Of a DNA stretch of 64,000 bases, positions 4,506 through 49,364 are shown one piece after another. The DNA comes from Leeuwenhoekiella parthenopeia (GTDB lineage Bacteria > Bacteroidota > Bacteroidia > Flavobacteriales > Flavobacteriaceae): assembly GCF_020782115.1 (NCBI RefSeq), contig NZ_JAJGMW010000024.1:1-64000 (forward strand). The letters are read 5' to 3'. The notes below the pieces were generated by a model. That model was not told the DNA's origin, searched no databases, and saw nothing but the letters and a program-made list of their open reading frames with translations. The position numbers were made by a program, and so were the translations under genes. Position 1 is the first letter of the stretch; each line of letters starts with the position of its first letter.

Positions 4506-6536
4506 CTAATCGACATTATCGTGTAAGAATGAATTGTTTTTACGCAACTGCATCTCTTCATTTTCATCTGTACTGACTGAAGTTCTGGATAACGAGCTCT
4601 TAGCTGATGGATTTTCGTCAAGACTAACACCCATACGCTTGTAAGCGGGCTGCTTTTCAATCTCATCAATGCGAGACTGATTGTTTCTGAATTTGTAATT
4701 AAACTCCTTCATCATACGTCTGCGTTCAGCCGCACGCTCGGTTAGCAATTGAGATATTGGTGTATTGGTAGGATCTTCATCGCCTTCAGGTACATTCTCT
4801 TCAGGCTTTATCTTTGACTCAACACGTTTTACTTCAATAGCTTCTTCTCGTGTAATTTTAGGTTCGGCAGGTTTAGCCTGTACGGGTTTTGCATTATTTA
4901 AATGCTCCTCAATCTCCATATAATCATCCAGACTGTAACGCTTTTCTCCGTGCTCATTCACTTCGGTAACCGAAACAATCTCAATAGGACTGTTTACTTC
5001 TATTTCACTGATGTCATCGTCAAGTGTATAAACGATTTCCTTTGGCTTTTCGGTAACCTGTGGTTTTTTAGGTTCCTCTTCATTTAAAGGAAGGTCAAAA
5101 GAAAGCGTAAACTGCTCTTCATCTTTCAATTTTGAAACCGGATTTTGCTTTGGTTTAGGCTCTTCGACGCTGACAATTTTGAAATTAAAATCATCGTCTT
5201 CCTCTTCTTCAAAGATTTCGTTTTGAGCCGTATAGTCAATAACCTCCTCGTAAACTACCTGTATATCACGAATCAAATCTGTTGTAGGGATCAGATCCAT
5301 AGCCTTCTTAGGAGCCTCATTTTGGGTTTTGTTTACCATCAAATCCATAGGATCATCGGTATCATCAAGTGTATGTACTATAGGCTTTTTAACTTCCTTT
5401 TTAGGCTCTTCTAAAGCATCCTGACTTTTGGCAGAAGCTGAAAAATCAAGTGTTCTGCCGGTACTCTTTGGGGAAAGATCGTGCTGGGCACGCTGCTCAT
5501 CCTCAAGGGTATGAATAATTTTCTTCGTTTCGGTATTTACGATTTCGTTTTGCTGTTCTACGTTAAACCCCGTTGCGATAATCGTTACCGAAATCGCATC
5601 TCCCAGGCTTTCTTCTTCACCCACACCCATAATGATGTTTGCACTGTGACCGGCCTCATCCTGAATGTGATCATTGATTTCCCCAATTTCATCAATGGTA
5701 ATTTCTTCGGTACCCGAAACGATAAGCAACAACACGTTTTTAGCACCGGTGATTTTATTATCGTTTAATAACGGGGAGTCAAGTGCTTTTCTAATGGCGT
5801 CCTGAGCACGACTACCACCACTTGCACTGGCACTACCCATAATGGCAGTCCCGCTGTTACTTAATACGGTTTTTGCATCACGAAGGTCAATGTTTTGGGT
5901 ATAGTGATGCGTAATAACTTCTGCAATACCTCTGGAAGCTGTAGCAAGAACTTCATCAGCCTTGCTAAAACCGGCTTTAAAGCCCAGATTACCGTAAACC
6001 TCGCGCAGCTTGTTGTTGTTAATTACAATAAGCGAATCTACGTGAGAACGTAAACGCTCTACTCCAAGCTGAGCCTGCTCGTTTCGCATTTTACCTTCAA
6101 ACTGAAACGGAATGGTGACAATACCCACGGTAAGCACATCCATCTCTTTGGCCATTTTTGCAATTACCGGAGCCGCACCTGTACCGGTACCCCCACCCAT
6201 ACCGGCAGTGATAAATACCATTTTGGTGTTAGTTCCAAGCATTTGCTTTACTTCCTCAAGGCTTTCAATAGCGGCCTGCTCACCTACTTCAGGATTGGCA
6301 CCAGCGCCAAGACCTTCTGTGAGGCTCACGCCAAGTTGTATGCGTATGGGCACCGGACTATTTTCAAGAGCCTGTGCATCTGTATTGCAGACCACAAAGT
6401 CAACTCCTTTAATACCCTGACTAAACATATGGTTAATAGCATTGCTACCGCCTCCGCCTACGCCAATTACCTTGATCACGTTGCTTTGATTTTTGGGTAA
6501 ATCAAACGAAATGTTTTCAAAATCTGTGTTGCTCAT
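4506..6536 (-). CDS. ftsZ: Cell division protein FtsZ (long C-terminal extension)
   Basis: Tubulin-like GTPase that polymerises into the division ring. The globular domain covers residues 1-330, with VIGVGGGGSNAI near 23-34, the tubulin signature GGGTGTG at 114-120 and the T7-loop region around GFSKADEVL near 210. The protein is 676 residues, far longer than the usual 380-400. The extra ~340 residues form an acidic, low-complexity linker rich in Glu, Lys and Pro, then a conserved tail with RMMKEFNYKFRNNQSRIDEIEKQPAYKRMG. Such extensions are known in Flavobacteriia. The gene is last in the dcw order, 89 bp after ftsA, and is closed by a terminator. Confidence 0.98.
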   Translation of the reverse strand: MSNTDFENISFDLPKNQSNVIKVIGVGGGGSNAINHMFSQGIKGVDFVVCNTDAQALENSPVPIRIQLGVSLTEGLGAGANPEVGEQAAIESLEEVKQMLGTNTKMVFITAGMGGGTGTGAAPVIAKMAKEMDVLTVGIVTIPFQFEGKMRNEQAQLGVERLRSHVDSLIVINNNKLREVYGNLGFKAGFSKADEVLATASRGIAEVITHHYTQNIDLRDAKTVLSNSGTAIMGSASASGGSRAQDAIRKALDSPLLNDNKITGAKNVLLLIVSGTEEITIDEIGEINDHIQDEAGHSANIIMGVGEEESLGDAISVTIIATGFNVEQQNEIVNTETKKIIHTLEDEQRAQHDLSPKSTGRTLDFSASAKSQDALEEPKKEVKKPIVHTLDDTDDPMDLMVNKTQNEAPKKAMDLIPTTDLIRDIQVVYEEVIDYTAQNEIFEEEEDDDFNFKIVSVEEPKPKQNPVSKLKDEEQFTLSFDLPLNEEEPKKPQVTEKPKEIVYTLDDDISEIEVNSPIEIVSVTEVNEHGEKRYSLDDYMEIEEHLNNAKPVQAKPAEPKITREEAIEVKRVESKIKPEENVPEGDEDPTNTPISQLLTERAAERRRMMKEFNYKFRNNQSRIDEIEKQPAYKRMGVSLDENPSAKSSLSRTSVSTDENEEMQLRKNNSFLHDNVD

Positions 6537-7975: not shown

Positions 7976-8692
7976 TTATTTTTTTGTCCCTATAACCTGA
8001 CCTCTGTAACGCAGATCTACGGTTTTATACTTCTCGAGACTGTTATCTTTGATGGCTTTCTGGTAAAAAGCCTTATAATTGGCAAACTTAGACTGCAAGC
8101 CGCTAACCTTTCCCAAATTGATCTTATAGTCTAGCACGCGAGGTGTTAAAATATAGTCTCCACGGGCATCTCTGGTAATCCCAACTACCTGCTTGTTGAG
8201 CAGTGCGTCGTTATGCAAAAAGCTTAATAACGGATACACTTCTTCAATCTGTTTGCGATCCAGACCAGAAATGAGCGGTACGCGGGCAGCATAATTAGAA
8301 GACAAAGGCATCGCTGCCCCGGTTTCATCTATGTAATACGGTTCCTGAGCCTGCACACGCGCAAGGGGCTTTCGCTGTTTTACAGTAGCTCCTACCACAC
8401 CATCAAGGGTGAGGTAAACATCTGCATCAGAAATCATTGCGTGCGCGTCGAGTTTCTGCTCTAAGTTTCTCAAATCTAGAATTTCTTTAGCCTGTCCCTC
8501 AAGGGGTTTCTCATTTTGTATCAACAATTTATCAACCGTTTCTTCGGTGATAAACAGGTTTGCTCCCGTTTCAAAATGCACCTCTACACGCTCCACCTTA
8601 CGCGCGGCATTTCGCTTGTGCGAAAAAGCCACCAGAAACAGTGTTACAAACACCAAAACACCCATCCTTATGTAAAACCAATTGATCTTCAT
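7976..8692 (-). CDS. ftsQ: Cell division protein FtsQ
   Basis: Bitopic divisome protein that links FtsL/FtsB and recruits later division proteins. The 238 residues consist of a short cytoplasmic start, one transmembrane helix (about 7-24, IRMGVLVFVTLFLVAFSH), a POTRA-like region (about 35-105, with KVERVEVHFETGANLFITEETVD) and a periplasmic beta domain containing GDYILTPRVLDYKINLG. The sequence is divergent, as FtsQ usually is, so the call also relies on position: it overlaps murC by 4 bp (8689-8692) and lies 3 bp before ftsA. Confidence 0.92.
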   Translation of the reverse strand: MKINWFYIRMGVLVFVTLFLVAFSHKRNAARKVERVEVHFETGANLFITEETVDKLLIQNEKPLEGQAKEILDLRNLEQKLDAHAMISDADVYLTLDGVVGATVKQRKPLARVQAQEPYYIDETGAAMPLSSNYAARVPLISGLDRKQIEEVYPLLSFLHNDALLNKQVVGITRDARGDYILTPRVLDYKINLGKVSGLQSKFANYKAFYQKAIKDNSLEKYKTVDLRYRGQVIGTKK

Positions 8693-44070: not shown

Positions 44071-45162
44071 TTAAGCTTCCTCCATTCTGGAGATTTTTTT
44101 CTGGTGGTTAATCGATTCCTGGTGAATCGCTTTAAACACACGCAAAATAAACTCTTCGCTCAAATTGTGTTGCTCTCCTTCAAGAATCATCGCCCCAAGA
44201 ATTTCATTCCAGCGTTTAGACTGAAGAATAGCTACGTTGTTTTGGGTTTTTAACTCTCCGATCGCGTCTGCGATTTTCATACGCTTTCCCAGATTTTCAA
44301 TCAACTGATGGTCGATAACATCAATTTGGGTACGCAGGGTATTCAATTTATTATTAAACTCTGCAGCAGTACCTTCCTCTTTACGGATTTTCAGATCTTT
44401 CATAATCTGAACCAAAGTAGAAGGGGTGATTTGCTGCTTGGCATCACTCCAAGCGTTGTCCGGATCATAGTGGGTTTCTACCATGATCCCGTCATAATTT
44501 AAATCAAGACCGGTTTGGCACAAATCAAAAATAATGTCACGACGTCCTGCAATATGTGAAGGATCTAAGATCAAAGGCAGATCAGGGAATTTATTCTGAA
44601 GATCTACAGCCAACTGCCACTCCGGATTGTTGCGGTATTTAGTTTTCTCATAGGTAGAGAAACCTCTGTGAATCACACCCAGGTTTTTAACATCCTGCGC
44701 GTAAAAACGCTCGACTGCACCTAACCATAAGGCCAAGTCAGGATTTACCGGGTTTTTGATAAGTACCACTTTATCAGTTCCTTTTAAAGCTTCAGCAATT
44801 TCCTGAATGTTGAATGGAGAAACCGTGGTACGCGCACCAATCCACAAAATATCAACATCGTGTTTAAGGGCAAGTTCTACGTGATTGGGGTTTGCAACCT
44901 CGGTAGTGGTAAGCATTCCGGTCTCTTCTTTGGCTTTCTGCATCCACTTCAGACCTAAAGCACCTACTCCTTCAAACATTCCCGGGCGGGTACGTGGTTT
45001 CCAGATACCTGCTCTAAAAACAGTTGCATCGGTATCTTTGAGTTCGTGAGCAATTTTAAGTACCTGCTCTTCGGTTTCTGCGCTACATGGACCAGCTATT
45101 ACAAGCGGGTGGTCCAGATTGAAAGCGTCTAACCAGTTTCTAAGTTCTTTCTTATTTTCCAT
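44071..45162 (-). CDS. Bifunctional DAHP synthase (KDO8PS-like) / chorismate mutase
   Basis: Fusion of the first shikimate-pathway enzyme with the enzyme at the branch to Phe and Tyr. Residues ~1-260 are a KDO8P-synthase-like (AroA beta type) DAHP synthase with GPCSAE near 23-28, RAGIWKPRTRPGMFEG, VLIKNPVNPD, IHRGFSTYEKTKYRN and DPSHIAGRRD. Residues ~270-360 form an AroQ-type helical chorismate mutase (NTLRTQIDVIDHQLIENLGKRM). In such fusions the mutase domain often also senses aromatic end products. The ATG at 45162 is preferred over one 3 codons upstream. It is last in the leader-controlled aromatic operon, 28 bp after tyrA. Confidence 0.94.
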   Translation of the reverse strand: MENKKELRNWLDAFNLDHPLVIAGPCSAETEEQVLKIAHELKDTDATVFRAGIWKPRTRPGMFEGVGALGLKWMQKAKEETGMLTTTEVANPNHVELALKHDVDILWIGARTTVSPFNIQEIAEALKGTDKVVLIKNPVNPDLALWLGAVERFYAQDVKNLGVIHRGFSTYEKTKYRNNPEWQLAVDLQNKFPDLPLILDPSHIAGRRDIIFDLCQTGLDLNYDGIMVETHYDPDNAWSDAKQQITPSTLVQIMKDLKIRKEEGTAAEFNNKLNTLRTQIDVIDHQLIENLGKRMKIADAIGELKTQNNVAILQSKRWNEILGAMILEGEQHNLSEEFILRVFKAIHQESINHQKKISRMEEA

Positions 45163-45190
45163 ATTCAACAAATTTACAGCTTTAAGCCAA

Positions 45191-46051
45191 TTACGACAAT
45201 CCTTTAAGTATTGATTTTATGTGGTTTGTATTGTGCATCTCGTTATAAACCTCCTCGTAATCCCCTGCTTCGAGCACGTTTTTGAAATGCGTTAAATTAG
45301 TTATGTATTCAGATAAGCTTTCGAGTACGTTAGCTTTATTTTCTTTAAAAATAGGAGTCCAGGTGGCAGGATTACTTTTTGCCAGACGCACGGTTGAAGC
45401 AAAACCACTGCCGGCCATATCAAAAATATCCTTCTCATTTTTCTCCTTTTCGATGACCGTCTTACCCAGCATAAAACTGCTGATGTGCGACAAATGCGAG
45501 ACGTATGCGATGTGCTTATCGTGCGAATGCGGATTCATATAGCGGATTTTCATTTCTAAAGCTTCAAAAATCTGCAAGGCTTTATCCAGCAAATCGTGAC
45601 GTGTTTTTTCTACTTCGCAAAGTATCATCGTCTTGTTTTTAAACAGATGCTCAATCGCTGCCGAAGGCCCCGAAAACTCCGTTCCTGCGATAGGATGTGC
45701 TGCCAAAAACTGATCGCGTCGTGGATGCTCCTTTACGGCATCGCACACACTGCCTTTTGTGGAACCCACATCTATAACCAGCGCATCTTCTTTTAACGCA
45801 TCGAGAATGGGCGGCAAAAACAGATTTGCCTGATCAACAGGTATTGCCAATATAACCAGATCTGCCTGATTAATGGCCTCAAATCGTGACGAATGATCGA
45901 TAACGCCCAGGCCAATAGCTTCATCCAGGTGATCTTCATTGCTATCTACACCATACAGCACAGATTCGGGCAAAATGCGTTTAAGATCGCGGGACAGGGA
46001 ACCTCCTATAAGGCCTATTCCAAGTATGTGTATGTTTTTAAATTCGTTCAC
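45191..46051 (-). CDS. tyrA: Prephenate dehydrogenase TyrA
   Basis: NAD(P)-dependent enzyme that converts prephenate to 4-hydroxyphenylpyruvate in Tyr synthesis. The 286 residues show the dinucleotide loop LGIGLIGGSL (10-19), DVGSTKGSV near 92-100, and FLAAHPIAGTEFSGP near 113-127, whose His is catalytic. Also present is HDKHIAYVSHLSHISSF, an all-helical dimerisation region. No ACT domain is visible, so control may be mainly at the operon leader. It starts 1 bp after the aminotransferase stop codon. Confidence 0.95.
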   Translation of the reverse strand: MNEFKNIHILGIGLIGGSLSRDLKRILPESVLYGVDSNEDHLDEAIGLGVIDHSSRFEAINQADLVILAIPVDQANLFLPPILDALKEDALVIDVGSTKGSVCDAVKEHPRRDQFLAAHPIAGTEFSGPSAAIEHLFKNKTMILCEVEKTRHDLLDKALQIFEALEMKIRYMNPHSHDKHIAYVSHLSHISSFMLGKTVIEKEKNEKDIFDMAGSGFASTVRLAKSNPATWTPIFKENKANVLESLSEYITNLTHFKNVLEAGDYEEVYNEMHNTNHIKSILKGLS

Positions 46052-46052
46052 C

Positions 46053-47204
46053 TTATTTAAATCTGCTAATGGCTTCCTTAATTTTTTCTTCAGTTACGCA
46101 AAGCGAAAAGCGTATGTAACCGGCACCTTGTGATCCAAAAATAGTCCCCGGGGTAATGAAAACACTTTTATTGATCAAAATATCATCGATAAAGGCTTCG
46201 GCATCCCCTGCTCCTTCAGGCAATTTGGCCCAAATAAACATACCCGCTGTATCCTTATCATAGCTGCAACCCAGGATTTCTGCAAACTGCCACATCAACT
46301 CCCGCCGGCTTGTATAAACCTCGTTCAACGATTGAAACCACTCTTTTCCTTCCTTTAAAACAGCAGCAGCTCCTTTTTGAATGCCATAAAACATACCGCT
46401 ATCCATATTGCTTTTAACCGTAAGCACCGTGTTTATGTATTCCGGGGCGCCCAGCAACATACCCACGCGCCAGCCAGACATATTGAAGGTTTTGCTCAGG
46501 GAGTTAAGCTCAATAGCGACTTCTTTAGCACCTTTGACTGCCAGAATACTTTGTGGATTTTCGTTTAAAATGAAACTGTAGGGATTATCATTCACCAAAA
46601 GAATCTGGTTTGCTTTCGCGAAAGCGATCAGTTTTTCAAAATCTGCCTTCGAGGCCTTGGCTCCGGTGGGCATATGCGGGTAGTTGACCCACATTAATTT
46701 CACTTTACTTAAATCTCTTAGAGAAAGCGACTCAAAATCGGGCATCCAGTTGTGCGCTGCGTCCAGATCATAATAAACCGGCTCTGCCTCTACCAAATGG
46801 GTTACAGAGGTGTAGGTTGGATAACCGGGATTGGGAATCAACACCTCATCCCCGGGGTTTAAAAAGGCCATGCTGATGTGCATAATACCCTCTTTTGAAC
46901 CCATTAGTGGGAGAATTTCGGTCTCTGCATCCAGATCAACATGATATTGTTGTTTATAAAAATCTGACATCGCCGCAGTAAGCTCGGGCAGACCTTTATA
47001 GCTTTGGTATTGATGAGCCGGACCGTCAACCAGAGCCTTCGTTAACGCGTCTATCACGTGCGGAGGCGGTGGCAAATCTGGGCTTCCAATACCCATATTG
47101 ATAATGGGTTTGCCCTGTGCTGCCAGTGCCCGCACTTCTTTCAGCTTTCGCGAAAAGTAGTATTCTGCAGTTTGATTTAACCGGTTTGCCGATTCTATAA
47201 TCAT
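46053..47204 (-). CDS. PLP-dependent class I/II aminotransferase
   Basis: A 383-residue fold-type I aminotransferase. It has the N-terminal MGIGSPDLPPPPHV, PNPGYPTY near 140, VNYPHMPTGA and NDNPYSFILNE in the PLP site, and the Schiff-base lysine in LNSLSKTFNMSGWRVG (about residue 236-240). Its place between pheA and tyrA and its start overlapping pheA by 4 bp suggest transamination of phenylpyruvate, 4-hydroxyphenylpyruvate or prephenate. Substrate is inferred from the operon only. Confidence 0.9.
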   Translation of the reverse strand: MIIESANRLNQTAEYYFSRKLKEVRALAAQGKPIINMGIGSPDLPPPPHVIDALTKALVDGPAHQYQSYKGLPELTAAMSDFYKQQYHVDLDAETEILPLMGSKEGIMHISMAFLNPGDEVLIPNPGYPTYTSVTHLVEAEPVYYDLDAAHNWMPDFESLSLRDLSKVKLMWVNYPHMPTGAKASKADFEKLIAFAKANQILLVNDNPYSFILNENPQSILAVKGAKEVAIELNSLSKTFNMSGWRVGMLLGAPEYINTVLTVKSNMDSGMFYGIQKGAAAVLKEGKEWFQSLNEVYTSRRELMWQFAEILGCSYDKDTAGMFIWAKLPEGAGDAEAFIDDILINKSVFITPGTIFGSQGAGYIRFSLCVTEEKIKEAISRFK

Positions 47205-48025
47205 GATTTTCGGTTTTTATATTCCCCAAGCACTTTAAACTCCTGTGCCATAATCTCTAATAGTTTTTTAGCCTTTTCAAAATCTTCATAACGCTCAAAG
47301 GTAACATCAACAAAAAAGGCGTATTTCCAGGGTGTTTCAATTACCGGTAAAGACTGAATCTTCGTTAGGTTTAACCGGCAATCGCTCATCACATTGAGCA
47401 CTGCCGCAAGGCTTCCCCGCTTGTGGTCTGTGAGGAATTTTACCGATGCCTTATCGGGTACATCAGCCTCGGTGCGTCCGTTTGTATTTAGAATAAAAAA
47501 ACGCGTCGAGTTTGCCTTTATGGTTTGTATATCTTCTGCCAGCAACTCGAGACCGTAAATCTGTGCAGCTGTTTTACTGGCAATCGCTCCTACCCCCCGG
47601 GTTTTAGCATCTGCAATACGCATAGCTGCCGCAGCCGTATCATCCTGTTCCACCAGCCTGATGTGTTCATGATTCTGAAAGAAATCATGGCACTGCAACA
47701 AAGCCATCGGATGAGACCAGACTTCTTTAAGGTCTGAAAGCTTTTGCCCCGGCAAAGCCATTAAATTCTGACTGATTTCCAGATAACGCTCTCCCTCGAT
47801 ATTCAGGTTGTTTTTGTCAATTAAAGCATAATTGGGAATGATGCTTCCGGCGATCGAATTTTCAATAGCCATCACCGCATCTGTTGCAGTCTCTTTAAGC
47901 AAACTGCCCACCACATCCTGAAAACTGCCGCAAGCCACTACTTCGACCGCTTCACCAAAAAAGTCCTGTGCCACTTTGTGGTGAAAAGACCCCCGTATTC
48001 CCTGTATGGCTACTTTATGTTTCAA
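47201..48025 (-). CDS. pheA: Prephenate dehydratase PheA with ACT domain
   Basis: Converts prephenate to phenylpyruvate in Phe synthesis. The 274 residues begin KHKVAIQGIRGSFHHKVAQ and have MAIENSIAGSI (near 70), DDTAAAAMRIADAKTRGVGAIASKTAA and TRFFILN, ending in an ACT domain (KASVKFLTDHKRGSLAAVL, ETPWKYAFFVDV) that usually binds Phe. The TTG at 48025 is preferred as start. The open frame extends to 48073, but that codon lies in the T run of the leader terminator and adds only Lys-rich residues. It is the first structural gene after a Phe/Tyr-rich leader. Confidence 0.9.
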   Translation of the reverse strand: MKHKVAIQGIRGSFHHKVAQDFFGEAVEVVACGSFQDVVGSLLKETATDAVMAIENSIAGSIIPNYALIDKNNLNIEGERYLEISQNLMALPGQKLSDLKEVWSHPMALLQCHDFFQNHEHIRLVEQDDTAAAAMRIADAKTRGVGAIASKTAAQIYGLELLAEDIQTIKANSTRFFILNTNGRTEADVPDKASVKFLTDHKRGSLAAVLNVMSDCRLNLTKIQSLPVIETPWKYAFFVDVTFERYEDFEKAKKLLEIMAQEFKVLGEYKNRKS

Positions 48026-48071: not shown

Positions 48072-48144
48072 AAAAAAAAATCCCGATTTATTAAATCGGG
48101 ACCTAAGTGCTTTATGTACTATAAGTTACTTTATAGCGGTCCCG
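48072..48144 (-). promoter_or_regulatory. Attenuator of the aromatic operon: terminator and competing antiterminator
   Basis: On the minus strand TCCCGATTTA (48101-48092) pairs with TAAATCGGGA (48090-48081), followed by nine T: an intrinsic terminator 47 nt before the pheA start. Its 5' arm also belongs to GGTCCCG (48103-48097), which is fully complementary to CGGGACC (48144-48138) inside the last codons of the upstream leader frame. The two helices exclude each other. A ribosome stalled on aromatic codons leaves CGGGACC free and prevents termination, while one that reaches the stop codon covers it. Confidence 0.82.
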
Positions 48145-48202
48145 TCTCTCTCCAGAAGAAAAAGAAGTAATAGCGATTAAAGAAGTAACCTAGATTGATC
48201 AT
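48131..48202 (-). CDS. Aromatic-rich leader peptide of the pheA operon
   Basis: A 23-codon frame with ATG at 48202 and TAA at 48131. Residues 5-17 are GYFFNRYYFFFFW: six Phe, three Tyr and one Trp in 13 positions, a composition that chance hardly gives and that matches the logic of a pheL/trpL-type control peptide. The coding end overlaps one arm of the antiterminator, and the terminator begins 30 nt after the stop codon. It precedes pheA, the aminotransferase, tyrA and DAHP synthase/chorismate mutase, whose products make exactly these amino acids. Translation is inferred. A weak promoter-like TACTTTAG lies at 48222-48229. Confidence 0.85.
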   Translation of the reverse strand: MINLGYFFNRYYFFFFWRETGPL

Positions 48203-48229
48203 TATCTTGATTTTTACGCTGCTAAAGTA

Positions 48230-48467: not shown

Positions 48468-49364
48468 ATGTCTATACGGGTTAAAGATATTTCAAAGAAA
48501 TTTGGTGAGCAGAAGGCTCTTGACACAGTAAATTTCGAAATTCAAAAGGGAGAAATCACCGGTTTTCTGGGACCCAACGGAGCCGGAAAAAGCACGTTGA
48601 TGAAAATACTCACCACTCTGCTTAAACCTACTTCGGGGGAAGCTTCGGTGATCGATTTTTCTACAGAAAACGCTCCACGTAGCGTACAGCAACATGTGGG
48701 CTATCTGGCCGAAAACAACCCGCTCTATCCCGAAATGTATGTGCGGGAGTACCTAAAACTCATGGCCAATTTGAGTAAAGCACCTGCAAAACGTGTTGAT
48801 GAGGTCATAGAAATGACCAGACTCAGCCCTGAAGTTTCAAAAAAAATAAAGCAACTCAGCAAAGGCTACAAACAGCGCGTGGGTCTTGCAGCCGCCCTCT
48901 TACACGATCCCGAGGTGCTTATTCTTGATGAACCCACAACAGGACTAGACCCCAATCAGCTTCGTGAAATAAGACAGCTCATACGCAGTTTGGGAAAAGA
49001 CAAAACCGTGTTGCTTTCTACCCATATAATGCAGGAAGTAGAAGCGATGTGCGACCGGGTAATCATCATCAACAAAGGTAAAATTGTCGCAGATCGCAGA
49101 CTTAAAGAGCTTACCGAAGCTACAGACCAACTTATTGAAGTAGAATTTGATTACCGGGTTGAAGAGGTAGCGCTTCAAAAATTACCTCATGTAAAGCAGA
49201 CCAAAAACACCAGGGGTTTTGTTTATGAAATCACTTTTGAAACCACAAAAGACATGCGGCCTGCGCTTTTTGACTTTGCCCACGATAACGGTCTCAAAAC
49301 CCTGCAACTCAACCGAAAAAATCAAACCCTAGAGCAATTATTTCACGAGCTTACCAGCAATTAA
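48468..49364 (+). CDS. gldA: Gliding motility ABC transporter ATP-binding subunit GldA
   Basis: ATPase of the GldA-GldF-GldG ABC transporter known from F. johnsoniae gliding. The 298 residues show Walker A GPNGAGKST (near 36-44), the Q-loop, signature LSKGYKQRVGLAAALLHDP and Walker B VLILDEPTTGLDP, then the H-loop STHIMQEVE. A C-terminal extension (about 215-298) includes VIIINKGKIVADRRLKELTE and is typical of this subfamily. gldF and gldG are not adjacent, and the following gene is a phosphatase-family protein. The full-length similarity to GldA rather than a generic subunit is judged from memory. Confidence 0.85.
   Translation: MSIRVKDISKKFGEQKALDTVNFEIQKGEITGFLGPNGAGKSTLMKILTTLLKPTSGEASVIDFSTENAPRSVQQHVGYLAENNPLYPEMYVREYLKLMANLSKAPAKRVDEVIEMTRLSPEVSKKIKQLSKGYKQRVGLAAALLHDPEVLILDEPTTGLDPNQLREIRQLIRSLGKDKTVLLSTHIMQEVEAMCDRVIIINKGKIVADRRLKELTEATDQLIEVEFDYRVEEVALQKLPHVKQTKNTRGFVYEITFETTKDMRPALFDFAHDNGLKTLQLNRKNQTLEQLFHELTSN

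Follow-up and report, generated by a model that had tools for sequence, protein, structure and literature searches.

Our results suggest, with a probability of about 90%, that the region immediately upstream of pheA in Leeuwenhoekiella parthenopeia works as a ribosome-mediated transcription attenuator of the classical type, placed before a Phe/Tyr operon. It lies in the window, the whole stretch of 64,000 nucleotides that was analysed (assembly GCF_020782115.1, contig NZ_JAJGMW010000024.1). This reading is based on an aromatic-rich leader frame, on three stems that exclude one another and co-vary, and on the operon that follows; promoter activity, translation, ribosome stalling and a response to Phe and Tyr are what we infer for the working element. 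The leader and its RNA switch would then probably allow protein synthesis itself to sense a shortage of these two amino acids.

The leader frame is located on the minus strand between pheA and gldA (positions 48131-48202). Its 23 codons run from an ATG at 48202-48200 to a TAA at 48133-48131 and encode the 23-residue peptide MINLGYFFNRYYFFFFWRETGPL, in which the segment GYFFNRYYFFFFW, carrying the putative Phe/Tyr regulatory codons, has 10 aromatic residues (F/Y/W) out of 13, as the initial annotation had described. The two strands of the window together contain 563 ATG frames with a length of 8-45 codons, and this is the only one reaching at least 8 aromatic residues in 13. In pairwise comparisons of the 13 leaders of the genus, where pairs are not independent, the YYFFFF block has 80 synonymous versus 24 non-synonymous codon differences, and the last 15 leader codons show 237 synonymous versus 187 non-synonymous differences. 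Upstream, a predicted -7 box, TACTTTAG (48222-48229, minus strand), which we take to resemble the -7 consensus of the phylum, is probably the promoter from which the leader is transcribed, with a putative start site. In 116 of 235 leaders, the motif TANTTT[AG]G occurs no more than 110 nt before the aromatic run; for control segments located 330-220 nt upstream, the number is 5 of 230. The leader ATG is preceded by adenines at -3, -6, -12 and -13, positions favouring initiation in F. johnsoniae according to PMC6847099, which also describes mRNAs of the phylum Bacteroidota as being without Shine-Dalgarno sequences. Judged from the sequence, the promoter-like box, the synonymous bias and the adenine context indirectly point to a leader that may be transcribed and translated.

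Between the leader and pheA there is an intrinsic terminator with a run of nine T (strands 3:4; 48072-48101, minus strand; hairpin -10.5 kcal/mol), composed of a 5' arm at 48101-48093, a loop at 48092-48090, a 3' arm at 48089-48081 and the T run at 48080-48072. The antiterminator pairs strand 2, CGGGACC (48138-48144, minus strand), inside the leader frame, with strand 3, GGTCCCG (48097-48103, minus strand), in seven perfect pairs that overlap the terminator 5' arm. The terminator and this 7-bp antiterminator had both been recognized in the initial annotation. It had also correctly placed the upstream strand before the leader stop codon, but at 5-13 nt; counted from the first base of this codon, the distance is 5-11 nt. 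Inside the antiterminator loop, a nested hairpin, CTATAA...TTATAG (48118-48137, minus strand), appears in the window fold when strand 1 is masked (-15.9 kcal/mol), and may strengthen the antiterminator in this model. The genes 3' of the leader, all on the minus strand, are pheA, encoding prephenate dehydratase (47204-48025, start taken as the TTG at 48025; PF00800, E 2e-54), a class I/II aminotransferase (46053-47204; PF00155), tyrA, encoding prephenate dehydrogenase (45191-46051; NF006307 above its cut-off, and PF02153), and a DAHP synthase-chorismate mutase fusion (44071-45165; PF00793 and PF01817). The earlier proposal of a downstream operon for Phe and Tyr is right, the fourth gene being the fusion. 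PheA shares 95% identity with its counterpart in Leeuwenhoekiella nanhaiensis (L070). On the other side, gldA, encoding a gliding-motility ABC transporter ATP-binding subunit (48468-49364, plus strand), is divergent, and therefore the terminator can serve the leader transcript only.

A third stem, 1:2, can be considered as a protector or pause hairpin including strand 2 (48129-48182, minus strand; fragment fold -13.0 kcal/mol). In its inner part the Phe codons pair with the segment immediately before strand 2, and in its outer part mid-leader codons pair with strand 2 itself; the apical P1 hairpin (48145-48165, minus strand) is 9 bp long in the window. When fragments stop short of strand 3, the upstream pairing of strand 2 averages 0.72 and exceeds 0.5 in 62 of 67 leaders; in the window its probability is 0.29, the basal part of 1:2 being weak there. 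When strand 3 is included in unmasked folds of the 67 leaders, pairing 2:3 averages 0.61 and pairing 1:2 averages 0.25. Masking strand 1 in the folds, as a stalled ribosome would do, raises the mean 2:3 pairing from 0.61 to 0.94, with a gain above 0.3 in 25 of the 67.

From these elements, the following mechanism can be proposed. RNA polymerase would start a little upstream of the leader, whose frame a ribosome would then begin to translate with no Shine-Dalgarno sequence. Under a shortage of charged tRNA-Phe or tRNA-Tyr, this ribosome would stall at the Phe/Tyr codons of strand 1, keeping stem 1:2 open, so that strands 2 and 3 would pair and transcription would enter pheA. When both charged tRNAs are plentiful, the ribosome would reach the stop codon and cover strand 2, strands 3 and 4 would form the terminator and transcription would end before pheA. 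On a transcript free of ribosomes, 1:2 could form first, and the folds on average would favour 2:3 once strand 3 has emerged. In the window, folding as far as strand 3 already gives the antiterminator a probability of 0.99 with no ribosome. The termination expected of an untranslated leader is thus not seen in the equilibrium folds, neither in the window nor in the means of the 67 leaders. Stem 1:2 as the cause of such termination was considered and is not borne out on average by the folds; in these models, the order in which the stems fold may decide whether an untranslated leader terminates.

Leaders of the same style with other regulatory codons were also found. In G033, the leader MTNNNTWWSNSKFYLKR (Thr-Trp-Trp) precedes a DAHP synthase-chorismate mutase gene (L385:69-122), and neither a PheA match (E <= 1e-20) nor a tyrA match was found in this genome; in this single case, the regulatory codons have apparently been switched to Trp-Trp. 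The genome of L. parthenopeia itself carries a His leader, MKATSLHHHHFYLRAQAR, upstream of hisG (C3; L301), after which comes a terminator-like hairpin with a short run of T, and a Trp leader, MKNRIANTWWWISQL, upstream of trpE (C21; L302), also followed by a terminator-like hairpin. Considering the hisG and trpE loci returned among 49 and 56 positive genomes, a short frame with HHH was found at most 600 nt upstream of hisG in 27 of 30 family loci (missing in L346, L350 and L367), and one with WWW within the same distance of trpE in 26 of 29 (missing in L318, L338 and L343). We also looked in this genome for an Ile/Leu/Val leader upstream of ilvD, but saw none close to it. A lower share of Tyr was sought in leaders of genomes without tyrA, where the six operons concerned are too few to claim a trend; they have 2-3 Tyr in their best 13 residues, the family means being 3.2 Tyr and 5.2 Phe, and a sub-cut-off PF02153 match remains in two of the six presumed tyrA-less genomes (G060 and G076).

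These codon changes bear on the idea of an arrest peptide, for which TnaC is the model. Its sequence would stall the ribosome in the exit tunnel upon binding of a ligand, for example a free aromatic amino acid, and the stall would set the RNA fold. A hydrophobic, aromatic peptide coupled to an RNA switch would suit it. Nevertheless, what is conserved is composition rather than a fixed sequence, the order and number of F and Y varying widely between clades, and G033 has Trp-Trp in place of the aromatic run. Therefore, we regard an arrest peptide as very unlikely.

A structured 5' element with a terminator and an antiterminator could also be a ligand- or protein-binding riboswitch or a T-box acting on the terminator, the short frame being incidental. 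A search of the window against Rfam returned no family at the gathering threshold. At a relaxed threshold, the best of 14 window matches was anti-hemB (22.5 bits versus a cut-off of 49.5; E 0.0028), and Trp_leader (RF00513) scored 12.5 bits versus a cut-off of 41. An Rfam search of 14 relatives gave matches in L094 only, none of them at its leader. This locus has two Flavo-1 (RF01705) matches, at 2000-2081 and 8147-8225, and its leader is just upstream of pheA at 6001. The lack of an Rfam family at the gathering threshold, together with the three alternating stems, which account for the structure, and the excess of synonymous differences in the YYFFFF block, makes a riboswitch or T-box highly improbable. 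If the attenuator works as proposed, it would provide an RNA element to which no Rfam family corresponded here, and also a route to annotating short leader genes.

In support of the attenuator, the alternative stems 1:2, 2:3 and 3:4 all co-vary. For the terminator, RNAalifold recovers the hairpin unaided from 71 non-redundant sequences, obtained from the 224 of 235 leaders in which the helix had 6 bp or more and the spacing was normal, with both-sided changes in six of its seven pairs. The antiterminator was analysed in 69 non-redundant leaders, with no helix filter, by swapping partners between species: the own pairing scores 17.7 versus 13.9 for swapped partners (sd 0.31; z 12.3), a value reached in 0 of 20000 permutations, and the controls are flat (upstream segment, z -0.5, 69 leaders; reversed arm, z -1.1, 67 leaders). 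The own arm is the best or tied-best partner in 13 of the 69 leaders and in the top tenth in 46, and in nine leaders more than 30% of foreign arms outscore it. The basal, outer pairing of 1:2 also co-varies (z -7.8; controls 0.2, -0.5 and 0.2; 67 leaders). For P1, own versus swapped partners give z -8.3 in 67 leaders, but its reversed controls also depart from zero (z -2.9 and -2.3), and part of this signal is therefore relatedness or composition. All these permutation tests keep shared ancestry in, and the helix positions for the 67-leader tests and the 71-sequence set were chosen by best complementarity; the per-position pair table rests on helices picked in this way and is illustrative only. 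A fixed-column count of the 2:3 helix (MAFFT alignment A2) was dropped in favour of the partner permutation because CGAGAC clades sit one column off CGGGAC clades.

The letters of the helices differ across the 235 leaders, in which the terminator arm cores are TCTCG (90), TCCCG (76), TCCTG (53) and, in 16 leaders, rarer types. The tails of the leaders pair better with their own terminator-core type. Similarly, in the distant locus L268, GAGCGGTC pairs with GACCGCTC, the three-way complementarity being kept in different letters. The tails also bear on the possibility that the peptide is a small protein acting in trans, with the terminator secondary, as suggested by the role beyond its own operon that PMC7298713 reports for peTrpL of Sinorhizobium meliloti. 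However, the C-terminal part of the leaders follows the antiterminator strand and not a conserved peptide (RETGPL, SKIGIAM, NETLYV), and there is very little chance, in our opinion, that the peptide acts in trans.

The leader is widespread upstream of pheA. PheA was detected in 178 of 199 family genomes (E <= 1e-20), and upstream DNA was examined for 150 of them (28 were left out), with at least 250 nt in 149. A frame with at least 7 aromatic residues in 13 is found in 144 of these 149 genomes, and one with at least 8 in 139; the five loci below 7/13 are L166, L218, L254, L257 and L261 (scores of 5, 6, 3, 3 and 6). In the genus, all 13 genomes have a frame with at least 8/13. Among 80 named family loci, 78 have the leader frame, L129 scoring 6 and L149 having 162 nt only. 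These loci comprise 976,298 bases and 10,244 ATG frames of 8-45 codons, of which 79 reach at least 8/13, and 74 of these 79 are located at most 400 nt upstream of pheA. A terminator under a strict rule follows 42 of the 79, and all 42 are upstream of pheA. No frame with at least 7/13 was found in 59 regions of 600 nt upstream of trpE or hisG in the family. The aromatic-rich leader frame in the window is not due to chance: AT-rich DNA readily yields Phe/Tyr codons, and 16 of 345 random 600-nt stretches of the named family loci reach 7/13 (one reaches 8/13), but the idea of a chance short frame beside the ordinary terminator of a neighbouring gene is contradicted by the conservation, the co-variation, the divergent neighbour and the location of the 8/13 frames, and its probability is negligible. 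The initial annotation had reasoned from the logic of pheA and trp attenuation and had proposed looking upstream of pheA in the family for an aromatic frame and a terminator with covarying stems. Both are found there, and the logic holds up in the 144/149 conservation of the frame, the both-sided terminator changes and the co-variation of the antiterminator.

Outside the family but within the order, 8 of the 19 loci examined reach 7/13; by family, the numbers are 3/3 in f2, 1/1 in f3, 1/1 in f13, 2/3 in f9 and 1/5 in f15, whose remaining loci score 5. The leader frame is absent from the four loci of f16, which has 600-kb genomes, and from f5 and f12, each represented by one locus. Elsewhere in the class, outside this order, with a PheA match in 34 sampled genomes and 33 loci examined, 17 of the 33 pheA loci reach 7/13, and 15 of these 17 have a strong hairpin and a T-rich run 22-39 nt past the stop. 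The terminators of L292 and L295, in this class sample, were not counted, as their hairpins are weak (-3.0 and -2.0 kcal/mol). With a covariance model built on the strand 2-4 region, matches were obtained in 110 of 120 family genomes (E <= 0.05), a number in which part of the weak matches are due to chance and for which the training sequences come mostly from the same family. A second match is found in the genome of L. parthenopeia itself (E 0.015). For 16 match sites among the matches listed, 11 precede a PheA-like frame, as judged from translation. Of the others, L385 is the site before the DAHP synthase-chorismate mutase gene, L386 and L388 have leaders at contig ends, and L389 and L390 contain no leader. 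In L391-L393, L397, L398 and L400, the leader is followed by a shortened operon of PheA-like and DAHP synthase-like frames, with no aminotransferase or tyrA found between them, and the genomes of L392, L393, L398 and L400 yielded no tyrA domain.

Such a distribution might reflect one homologous Phe/Tyr attenuator retained since early Bacteroidia, with helices rewritten in a compensatory manner and codons tracking the synthesis that remains (Trp-Trp in the case without pheA and tyrA), a scenario that we advance tentatively and place slightly below even odds. If it were true, ribosome-mediated attenuation, considering also the His and Trp leaders, would be the standard way of controlling these pathways in the phylum, and, in a phylum devoid of Shine-Dalgarno sequences, this would imply a close coupling of transcription and translation. 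If the attenuator works as proposed, many members of Bacteroidia would control their aromatic operon via ribosomes on a mixed Phe/Tyr leader. As attenuation needs RNA polymerase and ribosome in step, the element would be a natural reporter of transcription-translation coupling in Bacteroidota.

The attenuators of E. coli, Phe_leader among them, consist of a leader, exclusive stems and a terminator, and each leader has one regulatory amino acid. The element in the window resembles the enterobacterial pheA and trp attenuators in its short leader rich in regulatory residues, its three exclusive stems and its terminator before the operon. In contrast to those single-amino-acid leaders, it mixes Phe and Tyr codons, and initiation in a phylum lacking Shine-Dalgarno sequences further sets it apart. 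Earlier predictions by the groups of Gelfand and Lyubetsky have reportedly appeared in subscription journals. The trp operons of Actinobacteria likewise have a leader peptide, an antiterminator and a terminator in PMC1262725, where, unlike what we see here, no conserved RNA structures were observed upstream of the Phe or Tyr operons of Actinobacteria. The closest case is a structured 5' element upstream of pheA in F. psychrophilum, of the same family. PMC9723704 reports clues of leader-peptide attenuation upstream of amino acid operons in this species, and conserved 5' elements with no Rfam match upstream of pheA and hisG. For the pheA element, its section 19 contains neither the sequence of a leader nor a model of the stems nor co-variation, and ties no leader peptide to pheA by name. 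Among the titles and abstract openings listed in literature searches, no account fuller than this one was found. Therefore, attenuation of pheA in flavobacteria was already partly anticipated, and calling it little described, as in the initial annotation, is fair, yet it is not undescribed given this mention in PMC9723704. That annotation had missed this mention, as well as the co-varying 1:2 stem, the occurrence in other orders and the His and Trp leaders. Beyond the F. psychrophilum study, our analysis adds the leader, the stems, the spread outside the family and the case of Leeuwenhoekiella.
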